DNA of 64,000 nt from contig JAQTYN010000010.1 in NCBI GenBank assembly GCA_028688275.1, forward strand, positions 1 through 64,000. The letters are read 5' to 3'. The notes below the pieces were generated by a model. It made no database searches. It saw nothing but the letters and a program-made list of their open reading frames with translations, and was not told the origin of the DNA. The translations under genes were made by a program, and so were the position numbers. Below are positions 12,638-57,168 of this stretch, piece after piece. This DNA is from Gallionella sp. (GTDB lineage: Bacteria; Pseudomonadota; Gammaproteobacteria; Burkholderiales; Gallionellaceae). How positions within the stretch are numbered: the stretch's first letter is position 1; every line of letters begins with the position of its first letter.

Positions 12638-14296
12638 ATGGATAATCAAGATGCAACCTCGTGTGGGATTAAAGCCAACAAGGATTCGGATGTTTACAAT
12701 CCATTTCTCCGTTCACGTGACATGCGAAAGATGCTGTTAATCCATGTGAAGATTCCCCCCTTGCTTAATTTTGATGGAAAAGGATTCATATGTGCACTCG
12801 TCACATCAAGATGCCATATAGGCTGTACACATTGCATGTTTTTTTCCAACATGACAGAAGGTAAGAATGAGTTCAACACGATGACACCAGCTCGCATAGA
12901 TAAACTGATGCAGCTAGTAAGTGACTCCAATACTGGCTACCTACTTGTATCAGGAGGAGGGGAAGGATTCATTGAACCATCGCTTATGTATCAGATTATA
13001 GAGACATCCACTGCCGACATAGCATGGATAGTCACAAGTGGGTTCTGGGCACAAAAAAAATCGCGTGCAGCCGAAATTCTTAGAAAATCTTACCAAGCCT
13101 TTTTACGCGGGAACAAGAGCAAGCCAAACAGACAAGTATGTCTTCGTATAAGTGTCGATTCCTACCATGCCAGTAAATTGGTTATAGATCCAATTTATCC
13201 TTTCAAATACATCATTAACATTATCCAAATATTTGAGTCAACCTACTCAACTCAAACAGGCTTCTTCCTTCAACTCCACTGTATTGAAGGGGAGGAGAAG
13301 CTCATTGATCAGTTACGCCAGCAAGTTAATGCTGTCGAGGTTATAAATGTATCCTCAATGCACACTAATGAAAAGCTTACTGAATCAGCAATTACACTTA
13401 GAATGCCATCAGGCTTTGAGTTTGAAATTACGTTCGCGAAATTACTTCTTTCAGATATTGCAGCTGACTTGCGCGATGAAAAGATGCTTGATAGACGAAT
13501 TGAGCTATGGGAAAAAGATGCCTTTGTCAATGAGCGAGGCATGGCAGCGTACCAGCTCAACTCCAATGGCTCCATTGGTACTGATATGCTGGTTGTCTAC
13601 GACGGAAGAGTTGCTGGCGGCTGGCAAAGTGAGATGCCTGACATCTCAATCAATATTGACGTAGATTCATACGAAACCATATTAAATAAAACACTCTCCG
13701 ACCCAGGGGTTCTAGCCACAATAGAGCATGGCATCGCCTATCGATTCGAAATCATCAATGAAGTCTGCCCTAAGGCTAGTCTCCGTGCAAAAGCAGTAAA
13801 TATTCGAGACTACACCAGCCTTGTACTTCTTGAAGAAGATGCCGTAAAGCTCTATTACACGCTTCGTGCGATTCAGGATTTCATTACTGAAGGTCGCATT
13901 GAACAGCAAAATATGAACACTTGGCCTCCCGCACTTAAAACCATTATTAACCTCTCCAAGGAGGAGCTGCGACGACTATACCAGTCGTCAGACTATGACA
14001 TAGTAAAGCAGTTTGAGGAAACCGAGCCTGAATTTACTGATCTTATCCAAGAAATACGGGTTTACACCAGAACAGGAAACTTTGAAAGCATCATCCAATT
14101 TTTGTCCCAGCAAGCAGAAAAAAACCTTCGCCGCCTCGATAAATGGCGTTTATTGATGGAAAGGATTTCACACGATTGGTACGATATCCAATCACTGGAT
14201 GCTAAAGAACTCCTCGCGTTGATGCAGGTGGAACAATTTATTGATTCTCGACTACTGCAAGGACGAAGAGTCTATGAGGGACTATCAAGGTTATAG
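12638..14296 (+). CDS. Radical SAM domain protein, unassigned subfamily
   Basis: ALVTSRCHIGCTHCMFFSN (CxxxCxxC) and LVSGGGEGFIEPSL (GGE-type motif); WIVTSGFWA. Confidence 0.8.
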   Translation: MDNQDATSCGIKANKDSDVYNPFLRSRDMRKMLLIHVKIPPLLNFDGKGFICALVTSRCHIGCTHCMFFSNMTEGKNEFNTMTPARIDKLMQLVSDSNTGYLLVSGGGEGFIEPSLMYQIIETSTADIAWIVTSGFWAQKKSRAAEILRKSYQAFLRGNKSKPNRQVCLRISVDSYHASKLVIDPIYPFKYIINIIQIFESTYSTQTGFFLQLHCIEGEEKLIDQLRQQVNAVEVINVSSMHTNEKLTESAITLRMPSGFEFEITFAKLLLSDIAADLRDEKMLDRRIELWEKDAFVNERGMAAYQLNSNGSIGTDMLVVYDGRVAGGWQSEMPDISINIDVDSYETILNKTLSDPGVLATIEHGIAYRFEIINEVCPKASLRAKAVNIRDYTSLVLLEEDAVKLYYTLRAIQDFITEGRIEQQNMNTWPPALKTIINLSKEELRRLYQSSDYDIVKQFEETEPEFTDLIQEIRVYTRTGNFESIIQFLSQQAEKNLRRLDKWRLLMERISHDWYDIQSLDAKELLALMQVEQFIDSRLLQGRRVYEGLSRL

Positions 14297-14330: not shown

Positions 14331-15173
14331 ATGAAGATATTAATAACTGGTGCGCAAGGATATTTAGGAGCGTTACTTTTCGCTGAACTTCGGAATGAGT
14401 ATGACATTGTGGGTACTGCGCGCAGCAGGTTCCTTTCCAAGGATGTCATACCGCTTGATATTAGGGACATCGACTTAATGTATAAATGCTTCGCTTCAGT
14501 GATGCCTGACGTAGTTATCCATACAGCAGCAATTTCTAATGTCGCCTCATGTGAAGAGAATCCAGCTGAAGCGTTCAGGACGAATGCAGGAGGGACATTA
14601 AACATCGCGCAAGCAGCAAATGAAATCGGAGCCAAAGTCATTCTGATTTCCTCTTTGGCTGCCCAGAATCCGTTGACAGTGTACGGAAATAGCAAGCAAG
14701 CAGCCGAGAACCATATTCGAATGGTAAAAGCAGGGTATGAAATTCTTCAGCTCTCTATGACTTTTGGCCTCAGCCCAAATACCACAAATAATAGACCGTT
14801 CAATAAAATTTTACGCTCAATGAAATCGGGATTGCCGCAACTTTATGACAACAAATGGAAATTTCAACCAACCCACACTGAGCATTTTCTCTCGGTCATT
14901 AGCTGCATACTGCAACGACCATTCGGTGGAAATAATCTGACTATTACCATCGAAGAAAGTAGCACAATGCATCAGATTGCATCGGATGTTCTAAATCCTG
15001 ACCTCGTTATAGGGGCTCCCCTTTATCAAAGGCGCGCAGAGCAATTGGTGGATACATCACACTTGTCACGATTAGGTTTTCCAACCACAACATATTGCAC
15101 CATGATAAAGCGATTAAGGGAGCAGCTAAAAATAGCCAATACAAATTTTGTATCTTTCAGCAATGAAATTTAG
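14331..15173 (+). CDS. NAD-dependent epimerase/dehydratase, RmlD-like extended SDR
   Basis: MKILITGAQGYLGALL Rossmann motif; DVVIHTAAISNVASCEENPAEAFRTNAGGTLNIA; YGNSKQAAE (YxxxK). Confidence 0.9.
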   Translation: MKILITGAQGYLGALLFAELRNEYDIVGTARSRFLSKDVIPLDIRDIDLMYKCFASVMPDVVIHTAAISNVASCEENPAEAFRTNAGGTLNIAQAANEIGAKVILISSLAAQNPLTVYGNSKQAAENHIRMVKAGYEILQLSMTFGLSPNTTNNRPFNKILRSMKSGLPQLYDNKWKFQPTHTEHFLSVISCILQRPFGGNNLTITIEESSTMHQIASDVLNPDLVIGAPLYQRRAEQLVDTSHLSRLGFPTTTYCTMIKRLREQLKIANTNFVSFSNEI

Positions 15174-15371: not shown

Positions 15372-15641
15372 TTAAAACTTCGCATTCGGAATGGGGTAGT
15401 GTTCAATCACGAAATCAATGTCTTTATCCCCTCTGCCGCTGAGATTCACCAAAATCGTTTTATCGCTCCCCAATGTCTTGGCGAGTTTCATGGCGTAGGC
15501 GACCGCATGGGCGGATTCCAACGCAGGAATGATGCCTTCGAGTTGTGACAGTTTATAAAACGCATCGACGGCTTCTTCATCGTTGCACAGACCAATTTTG
15601 GTTCTGCCGATTTCGTTCAGGTAAGCATGTTCTGACCCCAC
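15372..15641 (-). pseudogene. trpB: C-terminal remnant of tryptophan synthase beta chain
   Basis: [16 protein letters not shown]...[35 protein letters not shown]...[14 protein letters not shown] matches the TrpB C-terminus; N-terminal ~2/3 absent. Confidence 0.85.
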
Positions 15642-16034: not shown

Positions 16035-16424
16035 TTATCTCACGCCCGCTGTCACCCTCTGTGCATTAATCTCGGCGATGGCTGCTTCAACACTGTCGGC
16101 GACCTCGTTTGAAGCATTATGCTTAATGGCACTGGCTTTGACGATAATGTTGACTAGGCTTTTTGAATGCACCCGATACGAAAATCGCGTATAGGTTTTC
16201 ACCACTTTCGCGCGGTATTCTCCCCATTCTGAGATGATGGCACTGGTCACAACAAAATCGTCCAATACAAGAATCGTATCCATAGGACGGTAAAATCGAC
16301 CAAAATAATCCGCATATTGGCGCGCCCATGCCTCACAGTCGTCCTTGGTTTCTATTTTCCAATTTGGCGTCGCGATCACAATATCGTTTTCCACATCATG
16401 CCTAAAATCTATGGTTCCTATCAC
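16035..16424 (-). CDS. Tandem ~130-aa family, copy A
   Basis: MIGTIDFRHDVENDIVIATPNWKIETKDDCEAWARQY...VWGEYR-type; aligns with copies B-H. Confidence 0.85.
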   Translation of the reverse strand: MIGTIDFRHDVENDIVIATPNWKIETKDDCEAWARQYADYFGRFYRPMDTILVLDDFVVTSAIISEWGEYRAKVVKTYTRFSYRVHSKSLVNIIVKASAIKHNASNEVADSVEAAIAEINAQRVTAGVR

Positions 16425-16475
16425 GGTATTTCCTATCGCCTTTCAATGGTATTCACATCACTAAACCTGAATCGG

Positions 16476-16865
16476 CTATTTAATGCCCGCTTTCGCTCTC
16501 TCGGCTTTAATGGCAGCAATCGCCTCTTCGATACTCTTGGCTTCTCTATTCGGGGTTTGGTATTTAGCATTACTGGTCATACTGGCAATACTGACCAGCA
16601 TTTTCGGATTCACCCGATAAGAAATCCGAATATAGTTTTCGATCATCTTCGCGCGGTATTCGCCCCACAGTGTCATGATATTGCCGCTCATCGTAAAATA
16701 GTCAAATACAAAAATCACATCAATTTTGCGATGAAATTGACGGAAGTAATCATCACATTGTCCGAATCCCACCCTACAATCTTCCTCGGTTTCCATGTGC
16801 CAGCGTGGGGTCGCGATCACAACATCATTGCGCACGTCATGCCTAAAATCGACTGTTCCTCTCAC
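16476..16865 (-). CDS. Tandem ~130-aa family, copy B
   Basis: MRGTVDFRHDVRNDVVIATPRWHMETEEDCRVGFGQCDDYF. Confidence 0.85.
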   Translation of the reverse strand: MRGTVDFRHDVRNDVVIATPRWHMETEEDCRVGFGQCDDYFRQFHRKIDVIFVFDYFTMSGNIMTLWGEYRAKMIENYIRISYRVNPKMLVSIASMTSNAKYQTPNREAKSIEEAIAAIKAERAKAGIK

Positions 16866-16905
16866 AACATTACCTCAACTATTAGTGTTCATTTATCTTG
16901 AATAA

Positions 16906-17319
16906 TCACTGAAAACAGGGACGAATCGTTGCTTGATGCCCGTTGATCCTATCCGCTTGAATCGCGGTGATAGCATGCGCTATGCTTTCCGCTTCACTGC
17001 TAGGATTTTTGTATTTAATTGCACTGATCGAACTGGCAATGTTGACGACGGGTTTGGGATGAACCAGATAGTAGAATCTAGTATAGCGTGTAATCAGCTT
17101 GATTCTGTACTCTCCCCACACCGTCATGATTTGACTGTTAATCGTAAAATCATGCAACACAAAAATCATATCCATAGGGCGATCAAAATGATGACTAAAA
17201 TACGCCTCATACTGATTAAGCCATAGCTCACAATCCTCTTGCGTTTCTATTCTCCAGTGTGGGATGGCGATGACAATATCATTTTCCGTGTCATACTGAA
17301 AGTCTATTGTTCCTATCAC
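16906..17319 (-). CDS. Tandem ~130-aa family, copy C
   Basis: MIGTIDFQYDTENDIVIAIPHWRIETQEDCELWLNQYEAYF. Confidence 0.85.
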   Translation of the reverse strand: MIGTIDFQYDTENDIVIAIPHWRIETQEDCELWLNQYEAYFSHHFDRPMDMIFVLHDFTINSQIMTVWGEYRIKLITRYTRFYYLVHPKPVVNIASSISAIKYKNPSSEAESIAHAITAIQADRINGHQATIRPCFQ

Positions 17320-17341
17320 ACAGTCCTCAACTATTTATTTT

Positions 17342-17495
17342 AAGGAGGTACTGATTAAATCCGTTCCCCTTGAGCCGTGAGTTTATCGAATGGTCGAAGG
17401 GTGAACGAATTTAATCTATTGATTTAATTACATCTTCCATTCATGGCTCGACAAGCTCACCACGAACGTAAGATTTAATCAGCGTTTCCTTAGTT
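17342..17495. mobile_element. MITE/REP-like element copy 2, inserted inside the tandem gene array
   Basis: actgattaaatccgttcccc...gacaagctcaccacgaacgtaagatttaatcagcgtttcctta. Confidence 0.8.
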
Positions 17496-17526
17496 TTATG
17501 AAGCTCCCCACAATTTAGCGAAATCG

Positions 17527-17919
17527 CTATTTAATGCCCGCTTTTGCCCTATCTGCTTTAATGGCAGCAATCGCCTCTCCAATACTACTTTTTTCTGGGT
17601 TAGGTGTTTTGGTTCTTAGAATACTGACCGTTGTGGCGATACTGACCAGAGCTTGGGGACTCACTCGATAAGAAAACCTAACGTGGTTTTCGTGAAACAG
17701 CTTGACTCGGTATTCCCCCCACACCGTCATAATCTGACCGTCGATACTCAAGTCACCCAATAAAAAAATTACATCAACTTGCCGACCAACTCGTTGAAAA
17801 TAATTAGAATATTGATCGAACCATGCTTGACAATCCGCTTCGGTTTCAATTTTGCCGTGCGGCGTAGCGAACACAATGTTGTGACGCACGTCATGCTTAA
17901 AATCTACCGTGACGCTCAT
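17527..17919 (-). CDS. Tandem ~130-aa family, copy D
   Basis: MSVTVDFKHDVRHNIVFATPHGKIETEADCQAWFDQYSNYF. Confidence 0.85.
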   Translation of the reverse strand: MSVTVDFKHDVRHNIVFATPHGKIETEADCQAWFDQYSNYFQRVGRQVDVIFLLGDLSIDGQIMTVWGEYRVKLFHENHVRFSYRVSPQALVSIATTVSILRTKTPNPEKSSIGEAIAAIKADRAKAGIK

Positions 17920-17935
17920 TGTTTTCTCCTGTGCG

Positions 17936-18328
17936 TTAGGCAGATGCCGCCACGCCCAACCTTTCGGCTTTAATCCCTTCAATCGCCCCTTCGACACTGT
18001 CCGCATCTTGGCTGATGGCGTTATATCTAAACGAACTAGATTTCACCATAATATTGACTAAGCTGTTGGAATTCACCCGATAAGAAAAGCGAATAAAGCT
18101 CTTCATCAGCCTAACCCGATATTCACTCCAGACCGTCACAATTTGACTGGCAACCACAAAGTCATCCAGCACGAAAACGGCATCCACTTTTCGGTGAAAT
18201 ACGCCAAAATAATCAACGTATTGTTTAAACCAAGCCTCACAATCTTCCTTGGTTTCAATTTTCCAGTGTGGTGTGACAATCACCACGTCATTTTCTTCGT
18301 CATATTGAAACTGTATTGTTCCAGTCAT
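17936..18328 (-). CDS. Tandem ~130-aa family, copy E
   Basis: MTGTIQFQYDEENDVVIVTPHWKIETKEDCEAWFKQYVDYF. Confidence 0.85.
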   Translation of the reverse strand: MTGTIQFQYDEENDVVIVTPHWKIETKEDCEAWFKQYVDYFGVFHRKVDAVFVLDDFVVASQIVTVWSEYRVRLMKSFIRFSYRVNSNSLVNIMVKSSSFRYNAISQDADSVEGAIEGIKAERLGVAASA

Positions 18329-18354
18329 TGCGGATTGACTCCTAAGTGGTTGCG

Positions 18355-18515
18355 TACAAATAATTGGGTATTGAGTTGCTAGTCGTTAGTCGCTAGTTTT
18401 TAGTTGCTGGCGTGCAAATTTTTTTTCATCTAATTGAATAGATTGTAAAAGATAGGGTGGCGGGCAGTTTCTCTGCATTAACTAACGATTAGCGACTAAT
18501 AGCTTAAAATCCCCG
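18355..18515. repeat. CTAGTCGTTAGTCGCTAG-type dispersed inverted repeat, copy 1
   Basis: gggtattgagttgctagtcgttagtcgctagt ... actaacgattagcgactaatag. Confidence 0.6.
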
Positions 18516-18544
18516 AAAATTTAGGTACGGATACTTACTCGTTG

Positions 18545-18934
18545 TTACTGAATACCCGCTTCAGCTCTTGCCGCTTTAATGCCTGCAATCGCGCCTTCGA
18601 TACTGTCTGCATCTTGACTCGCGGCGTTGTATTTCAATGAGTCGTTTTTAATAATAATTTTGACCAGCGAGTTAAAATGTACCCGATAGGAAAAACGATA
18701 ATAGTTTTTGACCAAGTTCGTTCGATATTCTCCCCACACACTGATAATTTTGCTGCTCACCACCAAATCATCCAGCACAGAAATAGAATCCATTTTGCGG
18801 CCAAAGGGCGCGAGGTAATCCGTATATTGCTTGAACCATAGCTCGCAATCTTCTTGCGTTTCTATTCTCCAATGGGAGATGTTAATGACCACATCATTTT
18901 CCGCATCGTAGTGAAATTCTGCCGTTCCAGCCAT
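18545..18934 (-). CDS. Tandem ~130-aa family, copy F
   Basis: MAGTAEFHYDAENDVVINISHWRIETQEDCELWFKQYTDYL. Confidence 0.85.
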   Translation of the reverse strand: MAGTAEFHYDAENDVVINISHWRIETQEDCELWFKQYTDYLAPFGRKMDSISVLDDLVVSSKIISVWGEYRTNLVKNYYRFSYRVHFNSLVKIIIKNDSLKYNAASQDADSIEGAIAGIKAARAEAGIQ

Positions 18935-18963
18935 GGCGTGTTTACTCCTAAAATTAAGCTGAT

Positions 18964-19758
18964 TTATCGAATGCCAGCTTCAAGCCTCGCGGCTTTAATC
19001 CCTGCAATCGCGCCTTCGATACTGTCCGCATCTTGACTTGCGGCGTTGTATTTGAATGCACCGCTTTTAATAATAATTTTAATCAATGAGTTCACATGTA
19101 CTCGATAGGAAAATCGAATATGCTCTTTCACCAAGGTCATTCGGTATTCCCCCCACACATTGATAATTTGACTGGTCACGGCAAAATCATCCAGCACCAT
19201 AACCAGATCCATTTTGCGACCAAAGGGCGTGAGATAATCCGTATATTGCTTGAGCCACACCTCACAATCTGCTGGGGTTTCTATCTTCCAATTGGGTATC
19301 GCAATCACCACATCATTTTCTGCATCGTATTGAAACTGTATCGTTCCCACTTCGGCATTTGTCCCGACAGATTGCAAGCCCTTTTCAAGCCGTGAAGCCG
19401 TAATGCCCGCAATCGCTTCCTCAACACTGTCAGCATCTTGGCTAATGACATTCGATTCGCGCGAACTGTTGGCAAGCAGCAGATTGAGGAGGCGATTTGA
19501 ATGCACCCGATAGGGTAAGCGAACATAGTTTCTCAACAAGTTAATGCGGTATTCTGCCCAGACATTGATGATATTGCTAGCAACGACAAAATTATCCAGC
19601 ACAAAAATCACATCGACTTTTCGACAAAATGGCGTGAGAAAATCCATGTACTGCTTGAACCACACATCACAATCTTCTCTGGATTCTATTTTCCAATTGG
19701 GCGTGGCAATCACGACATCTTGTTTCCAATCATATTGAAACTGCATTGTGCCTATCAC
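18964..19758 (-). CDS. Tandem ~130-aa family, copies G+H fused in one ORF (GTG start assumed)
   Basis: Two full domains in one frame: IGTMQFQYDWKQDVVIATPNWKIESREDC... and VGTIQFQYDAENDVVIAIPNWKIETPADC... Confidence 0.8.
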   Translation of the reverse strand: MIGTMQFQYDWKQDVVIATPNWKIESREDCDVWFKQYMDFLTPFCRKVDVIFVLDNFVVASNIINVWAEYRINLLRNYVRLPYRVHSNRLLNLLLANSSRESNVISQDADSVEEAIAGITASRLEKGLQSVGTNAEVGTIQFQYDAENDVVIAIPNWKIETPADCEVWLKQYTDYLTPFGRKMDLVMVLDDFAVTSQIINVWGEYRMTLVKEHIRFSYRVHVNSLIKIIIKSGAFKYNAASQDADSIEGAIAGIKAARLEAGIR

Positions 19759-20088: not shown

Positions 20089-20586
20089 TTACACCGTTAG
20101 GCTTTCCACAGTGATATTCAAGTTTTGTGCGGCTGTGTCAATAGCTTGCATCACCACGGCGGCAGCGTCATTGTTGGTATTAGCAGGCTGCCCTACCAAA
20201 ACAGCGGCTGAAAAAGTGCGCATCGCATCTAGATGACTGTCCTTATCCCGCAGCAAAGGGGGCGGGGCAATCACTTGAAAATACAATAATCCGTTGCGCA
20301 ACGAGACCGCGAGCAAATAAAACTTATCCTTATCACCAAAAAGTTGGAAATCTTTTACACTGAAAAATTGTGTATCGCACTCCCCTGACACGGGTTGATA
20401 GGTGGCAAACTGCTTAGCGATATGTTCCATAAAGGTCTGCGCGCCATTAAGTTGCGGTGCTAGGGTGATGTGATATTGCCCCACCCGTTGTATCACCAGC
20501 GGATGCTCCAACACAGGCGGCTTCACATGGCGTAAGGTCAACACGACCAAAATGGTGAGTATGGTGAGTACAGTCAGTTCGATCAT
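20089..20586 (-). CDS. Uncharacterised membrane-anchored protein at the end of the T2SS cluster
   Basis: N-terminal TM MIELTVLTILTILVVLTL; ORF directly downstream of gspN. Confidence 0.65.
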   Translation of the reverse strand: MIELTVLTILTILVVLTLRHVKPPVLEHPLVIQRVGQYHITLAPQLNGAQTFMEHIAKQFATYQPVSGECDTQFFSVKDFQLFGDKDKFYLLAVSLRNGLLYFQVIAPPPLLRDKDSHLDAMRTFSAAVLVGQPANTNNDAAAVVMQAIDTAAQNLNITVESLTV

Positions 20587-20602
20587 ATAGCTTCCTTGCT
20601 GT

Positions 20603-21334
20603 TTAAAAACCGACCCGATATTGCCCCAACGCATTGGGCTGATTGCCCGTCAAATTCAACAAAGCGGAAAATTCGCTTTGGCGCGCGGGATCAGGCTTCA
20701 CACTACCTGAAAAACGAAAGTGGTCATGCGCTGCCCAACGTCCCGTGCCATTCACTTCCAACACGCCGCGCAAGGTGCTCAGATGCAATACGATGCCTTG
20801 CTCAGTCCCCGTGATGTCCACCAAATAATCCCCCAGTGGTTGCACGGGTAGTTTAATCGTACTCGCATCACGCCATTCGACGCGGGCTTTACCCTGCAAT
20901 CCGCCCTCAAATTGCCACGTCAACGCGGAAGTTTGTATCCTCACCTCGCCACCCCACCCATACGGCTCGGCCGTCGGGAAAGCCGTCGCCAACCATGCAA
21001 CGGGCAAAGTAAGCTGCGCATCTTGTATCTGCAAAGCTTGTCTGGTTAAACGTACTTTGGCATGGGAATCGCCAGCCCATGTCACGTCCACGCATGCAGT
21101 TGCCCAGAGCGCACACCCCGCATTGAGCGTCCACGCAAAATCTGTTAGGCGATACGTATCCACTTGCAACGCGCTGCTTTTACCCTGCCATAGCGTGCCG
21201 ACAGGGTCGATCAGTTGTATGCGTTGATGACTGAACTTCGCCAATGCCACCGCCGCCCAGTGGGCAGGTACGCTTATCAGCAAGAATATGCCGTACAGCC
21301 CCGCTGCGATCCACAGCTTACGACGCAGACTCAT
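20603..21334 (-). CDS. gspN: Type II secretion system protein N
   Basis: N-terminal TM then VPAHWAAVAL...LIDPVGTLWQGKSSALQV; position in gsp operon. Confidence 0.85.
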   Translation of the reverse strand: MSLRRKLWIAAGLYGIFLLISVPAHWAAVALAKFSHQRIQLIDPVGTLWQGKSSALQVDTYRLTDFAWTLNAGCALWATACVDVTWAGDSHAKVRLTRQALQIQDAQLTLPVAWLATAFPTAEPYGWGGEVRIQTSALTWQFEGGLQGKARVEWRDASTIKLPVQPLGDYLVDITGTEQGIVLHLSTLRGVLEVNGTGRWAAHDHFRFSGSVKPDPARQSEFSALLNLTGNQPNALGQYRVGF

Positions 21335-28115: not shown

Positions 28116-28252
28116 GGAGGAGCTGATTAAATCCGTTCGCCCTGAGCTTGTCGAAGGGCGAACGAATTTAATGTATTGATTTCATTAGATCTTCCATTCA
28201 TGGTTCGACAAGCTCACCACGAACGGAAGATTTAATCAGCGTTTCCCTAAGA
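28116..28252. mobile_element. MITE/REP-like element copy 5
   Basis: gagctgattaaatccgttcgccctgagcttgtcgaagg...ttcgacaagctcaccacgaacggaagatttaatcagcgtttccctaag. Confidence 0.85.
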
Positions 28253-33939: not shown

Positions 33940-34090
33940 GAGGTGTTGATTAAATTCGTTCGCACAGAGCAGTGAGCCCGTCGAATGGTCGAAGGGTGAA
34001 CGAATTTAATCTATTGATTTTATTAAATCTTCCATTCATGGTTCGACAAGCTCACCACGAACGGAAGATTTAATCAGCGTTTCCCTAATT
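33940..34090. mobile_element. MITE/REP-like element copy 6
   Basis: ggtgttgattaaattcgttcgcac...ttcgacaagctcaccacgaacggaagatttaatcagcgtttcccta. Confidence 0.8.
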
Positions 34091-35157: not shown

Positions 35158-35335
35158 TGGGAGACGCTGATTAAATCCGTTCGCCCTGAGCCGTGAGCTT
35201 GTCGAATGGCCGAAGGGTGAGCGGATTTAATGCTCTGATTTCTTAAATCTTCCGTTCATGGTTCGACCAGCTCACCACGAACGAAAAATCAAGCTCACCA
35301 AGAACGGAAGATTTAATCAATGCCTCTCTAGTACA
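35158..35335. mobile_element. MITE/REP-like element copy 7 (with partial right-end duplication)
   Basis: acgctgattaaatccgttcgccctgagccgtgagcttgtcgaatgg...caccacgaacgaaaaatcaagctcaccaagaacggaagatttaatcaatg. Confidence 0.75.
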
Positions 35336-56968: not shown

Positions 56969-57017
56969 ATCCTGTGAGAAAGAGAGGCTCTGACTTTACT
57001 CGCCTTTGAATCTGGGG

Positions 57018-57168
57018 AAACGGTGATTCAATCTTCCATTCGTGGTGAGCTGGTCGAACCATGAACGGAAGATTAAATAAAATCAATGTATTAAATCCAT
57101 TCATCCTTCGACCGTTCGACACGCTCACGGCTCAGGACGAACAGATTCAATCTGCGGCTCTCTAGTCC
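57018..57168. mobile_element. MITE/REP-like element copy 8
   Basis: acggtgattcaatcttccattcgtggtgagctggtcgaaccatgaacggaagattaaataaaatcaatg...acggctcaggacgaacagattcaatctgcggc. Confidence 0.75.

Follow-up and report, generated by a model that had tools for sequence, protein, structure and literature searches.

A diverged tandem set of predicted STAS-fold proteins in Gallionella with sequence relatives among the C-terminal domains of YdiF-type CoA transferases

In the stressosome, RsbS and the RsbR paralogues build one core through their STAS domains, and nonconserved residues on the conserved STAS fold determine its assembly (PMC6760441). The SpoIIAA-like proteins of DUF3478 (PF11964) have been proposed to carry nonpolar molecules, given their likeness to CRAL-TRIO (PMC2954209). 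The present work concerns eight copies (A-H) of a domain of about 129 residues, carried by seven minus-strand open reading frames (ORFs), one of which is a fused pair, at positions 16035-19758 of a 64,000-nucleotide stretch of a Gallionella sp. genome (contig JAQTYN010000010.1; the whole stretch is hereafter the window). The closest working analogy is the stressosome, which likewise uses a set of paralogous STAS domains; RsbR proteins, however, carry N-terminal sensor domains that the array copies lack, and no RsbT was seen at the locus. The copies resemble SpoIIAA, RsbV, and RsbS (PF01740) in predicted fold and in being single domains (about 115-130 residues), and most of them have a Ser/Thr close to where helix 2 begins in the model; they differ from those proteins in lacking a PF01740 match, a DSxG motif, and a kinase or phosphatase partner at the locus. 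Likeness to DUF3478 extends to the predicted fold (2q3l_A), whereas the profile comparison with that family failed. To the C-terminal domain of long (616-700 residues) YdiF-type acyl-coenzyme A (CoA):CoA transferases, the copies are homologous by sequence, with the same predicted topology, at 14-20% identity; unlike those enzymes, they are stand-alone, amplified, and without a CoA_trans domain.

A hidden Markov model (HMM) of the eight window copies recovered each of them at E<1e-58 in a whole-genome search, together with a ninth, solo copy on contig C76 (E=7e-46). Because of this recovery, and because one-to-one members with ratios of nonsynonymous to synonymous divergence (dN/dS) of 0.06-0.21 are found in a second species, Gallionella sp. 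STB_49, the array is not a chance pattern. Pairwise identity among the window copies is 36-73%, with 24 invariant alignment columns, and 16 residues are invariant across all 21 stand-alone members. ORF mapping reproduced the count and coordinates reported in a first-pass annotation of the window, and the sequence template given there reflects a real shared pattern, except that copies A, B, C, and H begin with GTG where the template has its leading methionine. The copies, with their orthologues at STB_49 locus L013, are as follows.

16035..16424, minus strand: copy A, 129 residues, GTG start; orthologue L013:6001-6390, 93% identity, dN/dS 0.09
16476..16865, minus strand: copy B, 129 residues, GTG start; orthologue L013:5559-5948, 91% identity, dN/dS 0.15
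16906..17319, minus strand: copy C, 137 residues, GTG start, altered C-terminus; orthologue L013:5105-5515, 92% identity, dN/dS 0.21
17527..17919, minus strand: copy D, 130 residues, ATG start at 17919; orthologue L013:4428-4820, 79% identity, dN/dS 0.20
17936..18328, minus strand: copy E, 130 residues, ATG start; orthologue L013:4016-4408, 89% identity, dN/dS 0.08
18545..18934, minus strand: copy F, 129 residues, ATG start, the copy modelled with AlphaFold2; orthologue L013:3095-3484, 88% identity, dN/dS 0.21
18964..19350, minus strand: domain G, C-terminal half of the fused ORF; orthologue L013:2679-3065, 84% identity, dN/dS 0.20
19351..19758, minus strand: domain H, N-terminal half of the fused ORF, GTG start at 19758; orthologue L013:2271-2660, 96% identity, dN/dS 0.06

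The fused H-G frame (18964-19758) encodes 264 residues from a GTG start, and the fusion is kept in STB_49. The longest ORF of copy D begins at 18006 and overlaps copy E; the start in line with the family is the ATG at 17919, which has an AGGAG-like site in front, and each of the starts inspected is preceded by a purine-rich stretch. The stand-alone ORFs are 129-159 residues long or a pure domain pair, and carry no CoA_trans region.

The predicted structure places the family within a known fold. The AlphaFold2 model of copy F, built from 30 aligned sequences, has a mean predicted local distance difference test score (pLDDT) of 86 and a predicted template modelling score of 0.79; its strands (residues 5-10, 15-20, 48-53, 79-85, and 107-109) and helices (27-44, 61-78, 89-102, and 112-126) follow the order b-b-a-b-a-b-a-b-a (b, strand; a, helix), and confidence is lowest in the helix 3 region (pLDDT about 59-76, residues 81-110). 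In a Foldseek search of the PDB, STAS/SpoIIAA-fold proteins or STAS-bearing transporters took 29 of the 30 top places (best E 3.4e-4), with template modelling (TM) scores of 0.66 for SpoIIAA (1tid_D), 0.62 for RsbS (6jhk_A), and 0.63/0.64 for DUF3478 (2q3l_A, probability 1.00). A STAS fold is thus supported for the array family, and the STAS/SpoIIAA-like character guessed at in the first-pass annotation stands as a matter of fold, but no PF01740 or PF11964 profile scores above its cut-off. A whole-genome search with PF01740 matched only contigs C6 and C69. True PF11964 proteins are present elsewhere in the same genome; the ninth copy reaches 17 bits against PF11964 (cut-off 25), and membership of that family was dropped as a candidate because hhalign comparison of the array family with PF11964 proteins of the same genus returned a probability of 1.7%. 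On these profile comparisons, assignment of the array copies to either PF01740 or PF11964 is not supported. Scans of the copies against Pfam, NCBIfam, PHROGs, and PADLOC gave chance-level matches only, and the family profile found no match among PDB sequences. The stand-alone family can be regarded as a new clade of a known, here predicted, fold, in an unusual tandem set.

Outside the stand-alone family, the only relatives detectable by sequence are the C-terminal domains of long YdiF-type CoA transferases. A profile of the eight window copies alone matched the C-terminal ~130 residues of one such enzyme at E=4.4e-5; this protein resembles YdiF as far as residue 317 (E=5e-88 to 2ahu), and the domain follows. 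Eight further matches within the class each stand last in a frame of about 656-734 residues. The first search of the class used an alignment that already contained one CoA-transferase tail; when the tails were re-scored with the window-copy alignment alone, four of the nine fell below E=0.01 and a fifth stood at 0.011. An hhalign comparison of the stand-alone set with the tails, with no sequence shared between the two, gave a probability of 95.8% (E 8e-9, 115 columns). When the tails were modelled by themselves (pLDDT 88.9), the elements came in the order seen in copy F; the first four PDB matches of this model are STAS-fold proteins, at weaker E-values (0.006 and worse) and followed by many ClpP chains. 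Aristolochene synthases, retrieved in a PDB search with a CoA-transferase tail (E=0.0018, about 90 residues), were set aside as a chance match, being all-helical and unlike the model. The tail, like the array copies, is absent from the Pfam, NCBIfam, and PHROGs libraries searched, and nothing was found in the literature on STAS domains in CoA transferases or on arrays of this kind. The earlier statement that the domain could not be placed in a named family is therefore right for these three libraries, and the link to the CoA-transferase domains is new.

The array is old and appears to be maintained. In a maximum-likelihood tree, each of the nine copies groups with its own STB_49 orthologue (support 96-100/93-100), and most of the duplications therefore predate the species split; the root of the tree is not reliable, the branch leading to the CoA-transferase domains being long. 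The nine orthologous pairs have dS of 0.09-0.61 (Nei-Gojobori), comparable to that of the flanking genes (0.26-0.56 against STB_49), from which it follows that the array is as old as its surroundings in both species and was inherited with them. The orthologue dN/dS range given above indicates that all copies encode proteins and that purifying selection acts on them. For paralogue pairs where it was computable, dN/dS is 0.13-0.54, with dS partly saturated. The first-pass view that the duplications are not recent and neutral agrees with these one-to-one orthologues. The selection for diversification to which it appealed is not shown, all pairwise values being well below 1. The sequence data instead fit a long retention of already diverged, specialised paralogues, every copy being intact in STB_49.

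Stand-alone copies are very rare. The stand-alone-family profile matched this genome only among 399 genomes of the phylum, no other stand-alone member was found among 100 relatives (including 60 genomes, G001-G060, that are of the same genus by listed kinship), and plasmids, phages, and viral contigs contained no family match. A scan by sequence pattern across 85,488 species genomes, which needs conserved peptides and may miss remote members, returned three loci, namely Gallionella sp. STB_49 and two Zodletone metagenome-assembled genome (MAG) contigs. STB_49 has a syntenic nine-domain array, with an extra copy X between E and F, and the solo copy; the Zodletone contigs (2.5 kb each, one copy apiece) were binned as Bacteroidales and Atribacteria, taxonomy being insecure for contigs so short. 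Copy X was either lost in the window lineage or gained in STB_49.

How the copies differ bears on what they may do. Paralogue differences are largely held within orthologue pairs, column 61 (Ser or Gly) being identical in all nine. Within helix 1 the variation keeps to a single face (p=0.002 by permutation; four helices tested), which is probably the exposed face, and variability peaks in helix 3 and the adjoining loops. Column 60 and/or 61, where helix 2 begins, holds a Ser/Thr in all copies except D (Asp-Gly); column 60 is Ala in E and H, column 61 is Gly in B, D, and the solo copy, and the DSxG motif as such is absent from all copies. Neither the Zodletone copies nor the CoA-transferase domains keep this site.

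The explanation that we place first, while holding it only tentatively, is that the array encodes a lineage-specific set of STAS-fold adaptor or scaffold subunits with a shared core and diverged surfaces, the paralogues of which may co-assemble. The proteins would be small, probably cytosolic, and SpoIIAA/RsbS-like in fold; they would form putative homo- and hetero-oligomers, by analogy with the stressosome, in which the fused H-G protein would amount to two covalently joined subunits, and the surface of each copy would contact a different partner or position, as in RsbS and the RsbR paralogues. The copies would thus share a fold and probably a general mode of contact while differing in specificity, and no classical phosphorylation-driven anti-anti-sigma switch is claimed. 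Several results weigh against such a set: none of copies A-H matches PF01740 at E<=10, the STAS profile staying below its cut-off, or PF11964; most STAS matches lie at TM 0.53-0.66, which denotes likeness of fold and not close family; no partner gene stands beside the array among its neighbours; and helices 2-4 have no significant variable face by permutation.

Among the rivals, small-molecule binding has the most support, even if we consider it somewhat unlikely. Each copy would then bind a different hydrophobic or thioester ligand (such as an acyl-CoA or a lipid), and the array would be a ligand repertoire; the sole sequence relatives are indeed domains of acyl-CoA:CoA transferases, DUF3478 (2q3l) is a fold match here and its family is the one proposed as carriers (PMC2954209), and variability is highest in helix 3 and its neighbouring loops. 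Helix 3 is, however, modelled with the least confidence (pLDDT about 59-76), and the family profile detects no CoA transferase with such a domain in the organism's own genome. The predicted STAS fold also invites comparison with classical partner switching, in which the copies would act as anti-anti-sigma-type proteins phosphorylated on Ser/Thr at the start of helix 2. The presence of such a residue at column 60/61 in all copies but D, the conserved Ser/Gly state of column 61, and two SpoIIE-type phosphatase domains on another contig, C9, are in keeping with it, yet column 60 is Ala in E and H, column 61 is Gly in B, D, and the solo copy, the site is not kept in the Zodletone copies and CoA-transferase domains, and the genome's HATPase_c_2 matches are weak and lie in frames of 421-748 residues, not in short RsbW-like ORFs. 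Because no RsbW-like kinase or PP2C phosphatase stands beside the array and the DSxG motif is missing, phospho-switching becomes less likely, and we judge it quite improbable.

Two further alternatives concern why the copies exist. An old local amplification kept mainly for product amount, with passive divergence, would account for the adjacency of the copies, the additional copy in STB_49, and the tendency of related copies to adjoin in the tree. Dosage arrays are usually near-identical, whereas these copies share 36-73% identity, differ in ways fixed within orthologue pairs, and are each constrained (dN/dS 0.06-0.21), which makes dosage or drift improbable. Carriage as mobile-element, phage, or defence cargo seems very improbable: although the distribution of stand-alone members is patchy, the array in STB_49 is followed by an ABC-3C/Lamassu-like defence system, and a dispersed repeat abundant in the genome has one copy inside the array, PADLOC matches are weak (E about 0.01), plasmids, phages, and viral contigs yield no match, and the array is vertically shared with its flanks at similar divergence.

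Two intervals inside the array lie outside its coding copies.

17345..17488, no strand assigned: dispersed repeat inserted between copies C and D, outside the family; 42 matches genome-wide, about 40 near full length
18346..18544, no strand assigned: gap between copies E and F, the site of the STB_49 extra copy X (L013:3522-3911), with no remnant of X in the window

The repeat (~144 bp) is REP/MITE-like in look, its genomic copies being 78-100% identical, and occurs in the window also at 28117-28245, 33940-34083, 35167-35289, and 57017-57152. A promoter scan gave sites no more numerous than in shuffles; terminator-like sites exceeded the shuffles (12 against 4.4 +/- 2.1), but most of them were within genes or on the opposite strand.

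The neighbours of the array are type II secretion genes, a radical S-adenosylmethionine (SAM) gene, and a sugar-nucleotide-type reductase gene. The radical SAM protein (12638-14296, plus strand, 552 residues) is weakly like the peptide epimerase YydG, and the RmlD-like NAD-dependent reductase (14331-15173, plus strand) comes directly after it; the two genes are possibly a small biosynthetic pair. A stand-alone fragment at 15372-15641 (minus strand) encodes the last 89 residues of tryptophan synthase beta (trpB); its DNA is 94.8% identical to that of a complete trpB on contig C89 of this genome, and it adjoins the array in STB_49 as well (95%). Just past the array and this fragment, STB_49 carries the ABC-three-component/Lamassu-like system (L013:7239-11458; LmuA, LmuB, PF20276, PF20289) where the window has the radical SAM and reductase genes, which points to a variable insertion site; the system is absent from the window and was rejected as a part of the array. 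On the other side, a 181-residue protein (20089-20634, minus strand) after the gspM/N genes has no Pfam or NCBIfam match; homologues, at 33-63% identity, occur in 40 of the 61 genomes that the genus search covered. The solo copy (region L011:1322-2957, contig C76) is the only one with an apparent operon partner: it is encoded 28 bp downstream of a gene for a 207-residue membrane protein without a Pfam match, beyond which lies a divergent MarR/HxlR-type regulator (RrpA-like, below cut-off), and the region is 95% identical in STB_49.

Co-assembling STAS-fold sets such as stressosomes are central signalling hubs. In its boldest form, which we regard as unlikely, the adaptor reading would make the array an undescribed STAS-fold family, either descended from a CoA-transferase accessory domain or of common ancestry with it, that has expanded within one small Gallionella lineage to nine or ten subunits of a hetero-oligomeric set and serves as a sensor-less stressosome-like scaffold or combinatorial adaptor system. 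The link to the CoA transferases gives a widespread C-terminal domain of YdiF-type enzymes a predicted fold. If the adaptor reading is true, eight to ten diverged, sensor-less, and long-kept subunits in an iron-oxidiser lineage would amount to a natural experiment on how paralogue surfaces set assembly partners.

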